Shown: piece after piece, positions 21,851-24,422 of the stretch | Numbering within the stretch: the first letter of the stretch is position 1 | Layout: every line of letters starts with the position of its first letter | Assembly (NCBI RefSeq): GCF_036345155.1 | Contig: NZ_CP107772.1 | Coordinates: 9,610,001-9,674,000, forward strand | Origin: Streptomyces sp. NBC_00582 | GTDB lineage: Bacteria > Actinomycetota > Actinomycetes > Streptomycetales > Streptomycetaceae | Direction: 5' to 3' | Length of the DNA stretch: 64,000 nucleotides | Made by a program: the position numbers and the translations under genes | Notes under the pieces: model-generated | What the model saw: the letters and a program-made list of their open reading frames with translations, nothing else | The model's database searches: none | What the model was told of the DNA's origin: nothing

Positions 21851-21938
21851 TCCCCTCCCCGCACCTCGAACCGCCACCCCGCACCACCCCACGCCACCTC
21901 GCCCCGCCTCGCCCAAGGAAAGAATCTCAATGATCGCG

Positions 21939-23141
21939 TCAAGGCGCCTGCGTGACCGGTGGGGCGGAGGTGAACAGCCTCTTGTCACGCAGGATCGCCC
22001 AGAGCACGTCGACCCGGCGGCGGGCAAGCGAGAGGAGGGCCTGCGTGTGCAGCAGTCCCTCGGCCCGCTTCTTGAGGTAGTAGTCCCGGGAAGGTCCGGG
22101 TCGCATCATCGCCGTCTGCGCGGCCATGTAGAAGATGTGCCGCAGGCGCCGGTTGTAGCGCTTGGGCCGGTGGTAGTTGCCGGTGCGGCGGCCGGAGTCG
22201 CGGGCGACCGGGGCCAGGCCGGCGTGCGAGGCCAGACGGCCGGCGTCGCGGTAGCCGGACAGGTCCCCGACGATGGCGATGAACTCGGCCCCGAGGATGG
22301 GGCCCATGCCGGGCATGGACTCGATGATCTCGGCACGGTCGTCGGTGCGGAAGGTCTCGCGGATCTCCCGGTCGTTGTCCTTGATCCGCTCGTCCAGGGC
22401 CAGGAGCTGGTGGGCGAGGTCGCGGACCAGCTGCGCGGCCCGTTTCTCGCCGGGAAGCGCGAGCTGCTGGGACTGGGCGGCCTCGACGGCCTTGGCCGCG
22501 ACGTCGACAGCGCCGCGGACCTTGCGGCGTTCCAGCCAGGTCGTCAGCCGCTTGACGCCGATCCGACGCAGGGCGGCCGGGGTCTGGTACTCGGTCAGCA
22601 TGACGACCGGGCCTTTGGCCGCGGAGTAGTCGAAGGCCCGCTCCAGCGCGGGGCAGATGCCCACCAGCAGGTCGCGAAGCCGGTTGATCAGGCGGACGCG
22701 GTCGGCGATCAGGTCTGCCCGATGGTTCGTCAGCACCCGCAGGGTGGAGACCAGCTCCGGGGGCGTGTCCAGCGGGGCGAAGTCCCGTCGCATTCTGGCC
22801 TGGTCAGCGATGACACGTGCGTCCTTGGCATCGGTCTTGCCCTCGCCCTTGTAGGCGCCGGACATGCGGTTGACCGTCCGGCCGGGGACGTAGACGACCT
22901 GCTGCCCGTGGGCGACCAGCAGGGCCAGCAGCAGGGTGGAGGCCCGGCCGGAGATGTCCACCGCCCACCGCACCTCTTCAGCCCGCTCACGGGCCGTCTC
23001 GATGAGAGTGAGGATCTGGGCCTCGTCGTTGATCACCTTCGTCGAGAACAGCGTCTCGCCGTCGGCATCGACCGCAACCGCCCAGTGATGCCCCTTGCCG
23101 GCATCGACGCCGACCCATATCCGCCTGCCAGACGTGCTCAA
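21939..23141 (-). CDS. IS110-family transposase (DEDD recombinase)
   Basis: A 400-residue transposase with an N-terminal RuvC-like DEDD domain (VWVGVDAG-type start IWVGVDAGKGHHWAVAVDAD, KTDAKDARVIADQARM) and a C-terminal Tnp_IS110 domain carrying MPGMGPILGAEFIAIVGDLS, ASHAGLAPVARDSGRRTGN with the catalytic serine region, and HIFYMAAQTAMMRPG. Length is normal, with no frameshift. The only plausible start is TTG 23141, with GGAG nine nucleotides upstream; the rare start may keep expression low. It appears intact and potentially active. Confidence 0.93.
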   Translation of the reverse strand: MSTSGRRIWVGVDAGKGHHWAVAVDADGETLFSTKVINDEAQILTLIETARERAEEVRWAVDISGRASTLLLALLVAHGQQVVYVPGRTVNRMSGAYKGEGKTDAKDARVIADQARMRRDFAPLDTPPELVSTLRVLTNHRADLIADRVRLINRLRDLLVGICPALERAFDYSAAKGPVVMLTEYQTPAALRRIGVKRLTTWLERRKVRGAVDVAAKAVEAAQSQQLALPGEKRAAQLVRDLAHQLLALDERIKDNDREIRETFRTDDRAEIIESMPGMGPILGAEFIAIVGDLSGYRDAGRLASHAGLAPVARDSGRRTGNYHRPKRYNRRLRHIFYMAAQTAMMRPGPSRDYYLKKRAEGLLHTQALLSLARRRVDVLWAILRDKRLFTSAPPVTQAP

Positions 23142-23339
23142 AGCCGTCGCTCCATCTTCCTCATGACCGGCAGTTCACGGTCCGAAGAACACCCCGCCGA
23201 CAGGTCCCTAACCAGCGATGACCGCAGTTCTCAATCAGTGGTCGGAGCGTCCTGGAGGACCGGGCGGCCATTCCTTTCGAGTCACAAGCGACAACCCGCC
23301 ATCAGCCACACCCGGTCCTCCCGGACCGCCTCACATTCT
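23142..23339. ncRNA. Candidate bridge/seek RNA region of the IS110 element
   Basis: IS110 elements encode a structured guide RNA in the non-coding end next to the transposase. This 198-bp region has hairpins CGGTCC-N4-GGACCG (23313-23328) and GTCCT-GG-AGGAC (23249-23260). It also holds GGTCCCTAA (23203-23211), the exact reverse complement of the target flank TTAGGGACC at 23339-23347, and TTCTCAAT (23228-23235), identical to the predicted circular donor junction. Strand is left open: polarity of both matches fits a plus-strand RNA best, while known bridge RNAs are usually sense with the transposase. Confidence 0.5.
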
Positions 23340-23351
23340 TAGGGACCCGCC

Positions 23352-24422
23352 ATGACCGCTACGCGCGTAGACTCCGATCTGATCCGTCGTCTCCCCAAGG
23401 CCGTCCTGCACGACCACCTCGACGGCGGACTGCGTCCCGCCACCCTCGTCGAGCTCGCGGCCGAGGTCGGGCACACGCTCCCCACCACCGACCCCGACGA
23501 GCTGGCCGCCTGGTACTTCGAGGCCGCGAACTCGGGCGACCTGGTGCGGTACATAGGCACGTTCGAGCACACCCTGGCGGTGATGCAGACCCGCGAGGGC
23601 CTGCTGCGCGTCGCCGAGGAGTACGTCCTCGACCTCGCCGCCGACGGTGTCGTCTACGCCGAGGTGCGCTACGCGCCCGAGCTGAACGTCAACGGCGGGC
23701 TGACGCTCGCCGAGGTCGTGGAGACGGTGCAGGAGGGGCTCGCGGCCGGTATGGCCAAGGCCGCCGCGGCCGGCACCCCCGTCCGGGTCGGCACCCTGCT
23801 CTGCGGCATGCGGATGTTCGACCGCGTCCGCGAGGCCGCCGACCTGGCCGTCGCCTACCGTGACGCCGGTGTCGTGGGCTTCGACATCGCCGGTGCCGAG
23901 GACGGCTTCCCGCCCGCCGACCACCTCGACGCCTTCGAGCACCTGCGCCGTGAGAGCGTGCCCTTCACCATCCACGCCGGTGAGGCCCACGGCCTGCCCA
24001 GCATCCACCAGGCCCTCCAGGTCTGCGGCGCCCAGCGCATCGGGCACGGCGTACGCATCACCGAGGACATCGTCGACGGCAAGCTCGGCCGGCTCGCCGG
24101 ATGGGTCCGTGACCGGCGCGTCGCGCTGGAGATGTGCCCGACGTCCAATCTCCAGACCGGCGCCGCCACCTCCATCGCCGGGCACCCGATCACCGAGCTG
24201 AAGAACCTCGGCTTCCGCGTCACCCTCAACACCGACAACCGTCTGGTCTCCGGCACCACCATGACCCGCGAGATGGCGCTGCTCGTCGAGGAGGCCGGCT
24301 GGGGCGTCGAGGACCTGCGCACGGTCACGGTGAACGCCCTGAAGAGCGCGTTCATCCCGTTCGACGAGCGCAAGGCCCTCATCGAGGACGTCGTCCTGCC
24401 CGGTTACGCCGCCGCGCTCTGA
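23352..24422 (+). CDS. add: Adenosine deaminase
   Basis: A 356-residue metal-dependent hydrolase converting adenosine to inosine. Zinc and catalytic motifs are all present: [11 protein letters not shown] (HxH), [20 protein letters not shown] (catalytic Glu/His), [14 protein letters not shown] and [20 protein letters not shown] six nucleotides before ATG 23352 is intact, but the IS110 element ends only 12 bp upstream, so the native promoter has been displaced by 1.4 kb and expression probably depends on the IS end. Its last 19 bp overlap the convergent DinB gene. Confidence 0.93.

Follow-up and report, generated by a model that had tools for sequence, protein, structure and literature searches.

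How an insertion sequence comes to lie between the ribosome-binding sequence and the start codon of a gene, and what becomes of that gene, is the question raised by the window analysed here, 64,000 nucleotides of contig NZ_CP107772.1 of Streptomyces sp. NBC_00582 (positions 9,610,001 to 9,674,000). A complete IS110-group element sits there, separating the presumed Shine-Dalgarno sequence (SD) of a gene for adenosine deaminase from its start codon. An earlier note on this DNA had read the non-coding end of the element as the gene of a guide RNA transcribed divergently from the transposase. The element, its ends (LE, left; RE, right) and its host gene are laid out as follows.

21915..21921, plus strand: AAGGAAA, presumed Shine-Dalgarno sequence of the interrupted gene, now before the ATG of the element (sequence, empty site)
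21922..21923, no strand: core dinucleotide, RE copy, GA on the plus strand and TC in IS sense (empty-site comparison)
21924..23345, minus strand: IS110-group element, 1422 bp with one core copy counted (four genomic copies, empty site L086)
21924..21932, minus strand: left donor half-site, RE end CATTGAGAT (four copies, empty site)
21939..23141, minus strand: DEDD transposase/recombinase, 400 aa, TTG start (Pfam matches, similarity to IS621 8wt6)
23334..23343, minus strand: right donor half-site, LE end CCTAAGAATG (four copies, empty site)
23344..23345, no strand: core dinucleotide, LE copy (empty site, parsed loci)
23352..24422, plus strand: target host gene, adenosine deaminase (PF00962, 1.9e-99)

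The transposase carries the domains PF01548 (1.5e-49) and PF02371 (2.7e-22) and matches IS621 8wt6 at 4.8e-8, with the detectable similarity almost all in the C-terminal half. A whole-genome search returned four copies of the element at 99-100% identity, which share (in IS sense) the right end ...CATTGAGATTC and the left end TCCCTAAGAATG and differ in their host flanks. The closest uninserted relative, L086, whose copy of the neighbouring gene matches at 90% identity through its first 449 bp, reads CAAGGAAAGA-CCCGCC-ATG at the insertion place. This empty site, CAAGGAAAGACCCGCCATG, lacks TTAGGGA and fits a 2-nt core at 21922-21923 and 23344-23345, which is why the core is placed there; on the LE side it is TC in 109 of 112 parsed loci. 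With the core so placed, TTAGGGA (23339-23345) is the end of the element—present in all four copies despite their differing flanks—and the stretch 23339-23347 (TTAGGGACC), which the earlier note had taken for host flank at the insertion core, loses that role. The left end, upstream of the recombinase, measures 204 bp and the right end 15 nt; joined in a circle, they are predicted to read CTTAGG-GA-ATCTCAATG. A short subterminal inverted repeat, CATT/AATG, can be made out by eye.

The words on which the guide RNA had first been proposed are all in place: GGTCCCTAA at 23203-23211, TTCTCAAT at 23228-23235 and TTAGGGACC agree with the sequence to the letter, the gap between the first two is 16 nt, and each word is beyond chance (when 23142-23340 was shuffled by mononucleotide 20,000 times, each turned up in 18 shuffles). 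Their roles are others. Read as the match to the target, GGTCCCTAA is kept beside four different host flanks, the very outcome that the earlier note had named as refuting its proposal, and this, together with the element-borne TTAGGGA, refutes the assignment of GGTCCCTAA and TTCTCAAT to target and junction. As a copy of the circular junction, TTCTCAAT matches the RE half alone (TCTCAAT), the junction point having been placed about 5-6 nt off. GAAGAA (23184-23189), offered as a weak likeness of the second target flank, sits at the foot of a conserved donor stem and is absent from the 45 strongest RNA-target column pairs of the scan given below. The two words belong to the right and left donor guide, respectively, and the target guides, which had been missed, lie elsewhere in the predicted RNA.

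21937..21942, minus strand: -35 box TTGACG, joined to the -10 box only in the circle, 17-nt spacer (TTGACN-17-TAAGNN in the loci)
23336..23341, minus strand: -10 box TAAGAA (circular-junction pattern)
23175..23328, minus strand: predicted gene of the bridge RNA, its approximate ends deduced from the promoter and the conserved fold (47-sequence alignment)
23293..23302, minus strand: left target guide ATGGCGGGTT, spelled like the left target flank ATGGCGGG-T (covariation with own flank)
23270..23279, minus strand: right target guide CGAAAGGAAT, complementary to the Shine-Dalgarno-like ATTCCTTTCG (covariation with own flank)
23227..23236, minus strand: left donor guide GATTGAGAAC, shares ATTGAGA with the RE end CATTGAGAT and contains TTCTCAAT
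23203..23213, minus strand: right donor guide GGTTAGGGACC, complementary to the LE start TCCCTAA and containing GGTCCCTAA

The assignment of the target guides comes from an alignment of the left ends of relatives, for which 112 of 134 loci could be parsed and 22 were dropped because an end or guide was unrecognised or a flank missing (two of the dropped loci, L015 and L020, have fitting guides by eye). Two stretches of the left end vary between elements in step with the host flank. The left target guide lies between GGC and TGYY and has the same letters as the left flank, and the right target guide lies before TGGCC and is complementary to the right flank. For one random representative per distinct guide pair (64 pairs from the 112 loci), the left guide agrees with its own flank at 6.28 of 8 letters in the best of three registers versus 4.0 with the flanks of other elements (n = 64, z 17.8), and none of 20,000 permutations came as high. 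The right guide fits its own flank at 4.62 of 6 letters versus 2.26 for other flanks (50 distinct guide pairs, z 13.3), and both relations hold separately in both subfamilies. A scan of RNA columns against target columns (n = 49) places the right-guide diagonal on top (RT+3 44/49, RT+1 48/49, RT+4 42/49, RT+5 38/49); there, indels blur the signal of the left guide, and z values of 3-5 occur in many off-diagonal cells, probably as a result of subfamily differences. The comparison of flanks and guides over many insertions, which the earlier note had named as a check, thereby comes out positive at 23293-23302 and 23270-23279.

On the donor side, the right donor guide tracks the LE end in 106 of 106 parsed loci (six were not parsed), with three end/guide types—CCTAA/TTAGG, CTTAA/TTAAG and CGTAA/TTACG—so that the agreement, with three types only, reflects few evolutionary events. 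The left donor guide is nearly invariant and its relation to the RE end is a match rather than covariation.

Within the genome itself, the four copies fit their targets to different degrees: the left guide at 9, 8, 7 and (fixed register) 4 of 9 letters, the right guide at 3, 4, 6 and 3 of 6, with 6/6 in copy L003 and only 3/6 in the window. These imperfect fits would indicate a tolerance of the guides for their targets. Other relatives carry guides for targets that are not start sites, together with fitting flanks (L035, L037, L082 and L138; L028, L057, L078, L141, L143 and L144; L046 and L065; L161-L164; L159 and L160; L142; L054), which may be seen as natural retargeting of the same guide RNA backbone. 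In a side group (L043, L073, L128 and L150) target and left end are unreadable, and L073, L128 and L150 carry the flank-like string AGAACYGTTGGTGTGGTTCTAAGG or a near-identical one.

The direction of the RNA is indicated by promoter and structure. Among the loci whose right end was recognised, 87 of 87 gain TTGACN-17-TAAGNN in the minus-strand direction when RE is joined to LE (25 of the 112 loci, with no recognised right end, lie outside this count); TAAG and the CATTGAGA end also served to find the ends, and the independent part of the pattern is TTGAC at exactly 17 nt. The consensus fold of 47 sequences reaches -65.6 kcal/mol on the minus strand versus -31.0 on the plus strand; on the minus strand it comprises a closing stem and two stem-loops, one for the target and one for the donor, whose internal loops contain the guides. 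Its 40 pairs comprise 1873 pair cells, 99.3% of them paired, 15 of the 40 pairs have changed on both sides, and all 500 shuffles fall short on each of five measures. Covariance folding of homologous elements, likewise suggested earlier, has thus brought out a conserved minus-strand structure with compensatory changes. On the minus strand, the column pairs 34/85, 40/81, 99/171 and 102/168 retain U-G or G-U in 44-46 of 47 sequences; on the plus strand they would be A-C. The single sequence does not favour the minus strand when compared with shuffles (minus z -1.78, plus z -3.11), and in its minimum-energy form on the minus strand the LE end pairs with the donor guide. A search of Rfam gave no match at the gathering threshold and two chance-level hits (E 1.5 and 5.9). 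Since promoter, conserved G.U pairs and consensus fold agree—pairing polarity alone fits either strand—the RNA most likely lies on the minus strand, in the sense of the transposase.

The guide RNA itself is of a known kind. Guides, their covariation, structure, promoter-like boxes and target sites can all be read from the sequences, and they make it very probable that the left end encodes an IS110-type guide RNA which would direct the element to a TC core before host start codons. The core of the earlier proposal—an IS110 guide RNA with target and donor guides in the non-coding end—has thereby most likely held, with the roles of its parts misassigned. A reading with no RNA at all, in which the words would be DNA-binding repeats of the transposase or chance, is very improbable: the target guides change with the insertion site between elements, the structure keeps its pairing by compensatory changes, and IS621 and ISEc21, in the parts of their descriptions considered here, work through such RNAs (PMC11208160, PMC11187229). 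Still more remote is the divergent plus-strand RNA with GGTCCCTAA as target guide and TTCTCAAT as donor guide, for which speak the presence of both words and the better fold of the single plus strand (z -3.11), and against which stand the element-borne TTAGGGA beside four different flanks, the opposite promoter in 87 of 87 loci, a plus-strand consensus fold half as stable, and the kept G.U pairs that would turn into A-C.

For the working of the system, we infer transcription, RNA binding, a circle and recombination from these features. The bridge RNA encoded in the 204-bp left end would run along the minus strand, as the recombinase gene does, and its promoter would arise only once excision has joined RE to LE. 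Its closing stem would enclose two stem-loops, the target loop first and the donor loop second; the 5′ side of the target loop would carry the letters of the left target and the 3′ side would be complementary to the right target, and the donor loop would read the element's own ends by the same scheme. The recombinase would use this RNA to bring the circle to a TC core and then insert it.

What the target guides are aimed at appears from the host side of the insertions. Of 93 distinct insertions, 75 are followed at a distance of 5-10 nt by an ATG that starts an ORF of 60 codons or more, compared with 2-6 of 93 in the same test shifted 30-300 nt further into the host; two further insertions lie at GTG and one at TTG. 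The 18 insertions lacking such an ATG comprise 12 with other guides (CAAAGC, AGTAGGG, CAGGCG, GTG-type and others) and six of the start type. The 54 start-type right guides share on average 4.5 consecutive letters with AAAGGAGGT; the mean is 3.4 for 10 guides of other kinds and 2.7 for random sequence rich in GC, with the fixed core GA counted in every group. In the element studied and most relatives examined, the target guides read as the antisense of a start codon and of an SD-like sequence; these predicted natural guide RNAs are programmed with a functional consensus rather than with one sequence. The 64 naturally differing guide pairs, each beside its insertion site, form a ready data set for target rules.

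An insertion between SD and ATG exchanges the translation signals. The host AAGGAAA now precedes an ATG in the right end (21930, plus strand), and the left end with the core, read on the plus strand, places the SD-like CTTAGGGA before the host ATG (23352). By this exchange the host SD would serve the right-end ATG and the SD-like sequence of the left end the host ATG. Between the two runs a long frame on the strand opposite the transposase.

21930..23342, plus strand: antisense ORF of 470 codons, its ATG behind the host SD (ORF analysis)

It ends in a TAG inside CTTAGGGA, 9 nt before the host ATG. Stops in this antisense frame correspond to the sense codons TTA, CTA and TCA of the transposase, and they were counted in intact, non-identical frames only. 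The 57 transposases with start guides hold one such stop (CTA 1/2267, TCA 0/760, TTA 0/153), with other A-ending codons at 6.1%, and 16 transposases with other guides hold 51; 56 start-guide frames are open and one is interrupted versus 0 open among the 16 (Fisher 3e-15, relatedness ignored). The use of these codons in the targeted host genes would give 26.7 stops in the start group (64 genes with GC3 >0.8, 17,768 codons). In the one start-type exception, L074, the insertion is not at a start codon. When a second lineage, about 50% diverged and including an IS900-like element, is added to give 113 elements, start guides go with 74 open and 6 interrupted frames (L074, L176, L198, L203, L215 and L227) and other guides with 0 open and 33 interrupted, a classification that was not blind: the automatic rule (left guide letters 3-4 = AT) was set after the stop counts were known, and 40 of the 113 were classed by eye with the counts visible (the whole second lineage, 32 elements, and 8 from the first set). 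Eleven intact elements were excluded as unclear, seven of them stop-free; they comprise, in the second lineage, L225 (no CAT in the guide, 0 stops) and L222, L223, L229 and L230 (left end unread, 0 stops) and, in the first set, L023 and L077 (left end unreadable, 0 stops), L043, L128 and L129 (2 stops) and L127 (1 stop). Duplicates and copies that were partial or broken were excluded as well. L225 is a possible counter-example to the link between guide and frame.

On the phylogenetic side, a tree of 92 elements shows 13 changes of guide class with six pairs on well-supported branches, which mostly split into five pointing the same way, none the opposite way and one with no difference (sign test, median p 0.06). 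With 113 elements there are 14 changes on the best tree and five independent pairs on well-supported branches, 3-5 of them pointing the same way and none the opposite (median p 0.125). The phylogenetically strict sign test alone, with its 5-6 well-supported pairs, stays above 0.05. Selection seems to keep the antisense frame stop-free mainly in those elements that aim at start sites.

Three readings of this frame have to be weighed. The one toward which we lean, held tentatively and at somewhat less than even chance, is that the frame is there to be passed through: ribosomes from the host SD would cross the open frame and terminate close to the host ATG, in front of which lies the SD-like sequence brought by the element. 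The consequence, to which we give the same somewhat less than even chance, would be that both transcription (no Rho polarity) and translation of the interrupted gene go on. Whatever effect there may be on the expression of the host gene would follow from this extrapolation. It agrees with such a passage that stops are avoided specifically—CTA and TCA nearly vanish in start-guide transposases (1/2267 and 0/760) at 6.1% for the other A-ending codons, and one antisense stop stands against the 26.7 expected from targeted host genes—and that the ORF of the window stops 9 nt before the host ATG; in 27 of 57 start-guide elements the stop is found either past the core or no deeper than 15 nt in the left end. 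Against it, the ORF ends 38-179 nt inside the left end in 28 of 57 elements and before the left end in 2 of 57; hence, a coupling to the host ATG is not general. In L016, L021 and L044 the antisense ORF continues across the left end, and its stop coincides exactly with that of the host ORF; this resembles an in-frame fusion to the gene targeted.

The second reading gives the product of the frame a function of its own: insertion at a start site would lend host promoter and SD to a functional antisense protein. This idea is reportedly the one expressed in the title of Doran et al. 1997, by which start-site insertion of IS900 lends host signals to the antisense hed and translation initiation signals are targeted. 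The ATG behind the host SD and the stop-free frames in 74 of 80 start-guide versus 0 of 33 other elements would suit such a protein. Its sequence, however, diverges fast (79% identity at 93% for the transposase, 49% at 67%), matches no Pfam family and gives no folded model in AlphaFold2 (mean pLDDT 31.6; 28 sequences, weak evidence), and fourfold sites are near saturation (0.546 observed versus 0.452 expected at 66% identity). All of this would be compatible with a protein that is disordered or evolves fast. At comparable protein identity, start-guide pairs also slightly exceed other pairs in fourfold third-base identity (the pairs not being independent), which could reflect some constraint on the antisense protein. 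Because the protein is poorly conserved and lacks both a Pfam family and a folded model, we regard a functional protein as the less probable of the two and lean to ribosome passage.

The third reading, a by-product of codon bias or shared descent, would draw on the higher mean GC3 of start-guide transposases, on the rarity of TTA, CTA and TCA in host genes as well (0.47 per 400 codons) and on the too few well-supported pairs of the tree-based test, and is improbable, since the link holds in both mixed GC3 bins (stop-free 13/13 start versus 0/4 other at 0.86-0.89, 4/5 versus 0/12 at 0.68-0.86), start-guide transposases contain 10.9 and 11.6 stops per gene in the two remaining antisense frames, and guide class changes 14 times on the best tree with no pair pointing the opposite way.

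Under the preferred reading of a frame open for passing ribosomes, guide, ends and antisense strand might form one adaptation, which we put forward with caution as a possibility short of an even chance: a guide with the consensus of start sites, ends that swap SD and ATG, and a strand that lets ribosomes pass, with the frame being lost when the guide drifts to other targets. If true, the guide RNA would serve to insert the element in such a way that the interrupted gene keeps working—a mobile element predicted to occupy the ribosome-binding region of a gene and yet to spare the gene. The link between guide class and stop-free frame looks new: in the titles, abstract beginnings and passages of journal papers covered, a tie of start-site programming to a stop-free antisense strand was not found.

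Compared with known systems, the element has the traits of IS110-group members with bridge RNAs: a PF01548 and PF02371 recombinase, a long left and short right end, two internal loops (predicted), matching of target and donor guides with bottom-5′/top-3′ polarity, and promoter boxes across the circle junction. As far as the parts of the IS621 description considered here go, IS621 has a promoter at the circle junction and a target loop before the donor loop, and the 5′ side of a loop pairs with the bottom strand and the 3′ side with the top strand (PMC11208160). The present element resembles it in an LE-encoded RNA in the sense of the recombinase with a circle-junction promoter (here putative boxes), in the order of the loops with the same 5′/3′ pairing polarity, and in a 2-nt core and short subterminal inverted repeat (PMC11208160). 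It differs in its core, TC in place of the CT of IS621 (PMC11208160), in a 400-aa recombinase similar almost only in the C-terminal half, in the closing stem of the consensus, which has no 5′ stem-loop, and in guides that aim at translation starts. Given the TC core in 109 of 112 parsed loci, the element is not counted as an IS621 orthologue, nor, given its 15-nt right end, as a member of the IS1111 group, whose RNA lies in a long right end. With the seekRNA of ISEc21, as far as its description was covered, it shares the upstream non-coding region, the circle promoter and a top-strand match 3′ of the bottom-strand match (PMC11187229). Unlike the present element, ISEc21 targets transposase codons of IS3 elements, and the passages covered describe no start-site programming (PMC11187229).

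The closest likeness in target choice is to IS900 of Mycobacterium avium subsp. paratuberculosis. Its target motif CATGNNNNNNTCTCCTT, as quoted in passages on it that mention no guide RNA (PMC8141618), has the layout of the targets here: CAT, spacer, TC and SD complement. Insertion between start codon and SD, as in IS900, is found here by the empty site and by 75 of 93 insertions at ATG, and as in IS900 an antisense ORF—hed in IS900—runs over the whole element, to the extent that the sources covered describe it. The word IS900 is absent from the main texts of the two founding bridge/seek RNA papers (PMC11208160, PMC11187229), and a search of titles and abstract beginnings of journal papers returned no link of IS900 or start sites to a bridge RNA. 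L170, an IS900-like relative at 52% identity, carries the left guide CATGTTTTT and the right guide GAAGGAGATT beside its own flanks CATGTTCTT and ATCTCCT, and its left end holds ACCTTTCTTGCAGGGTGTTCGGGG, one letter from a motif quoted there from IS900 (PMC8141618). A guide RNA may hence offer the mechanism for the IS900 target rule, for IS900 itself by analogy with this 52% identical relative. For the IS900 observation of 1997 a guide-RNA mechanism would then be at hand, and the status of the antisense ORF becomes testable.
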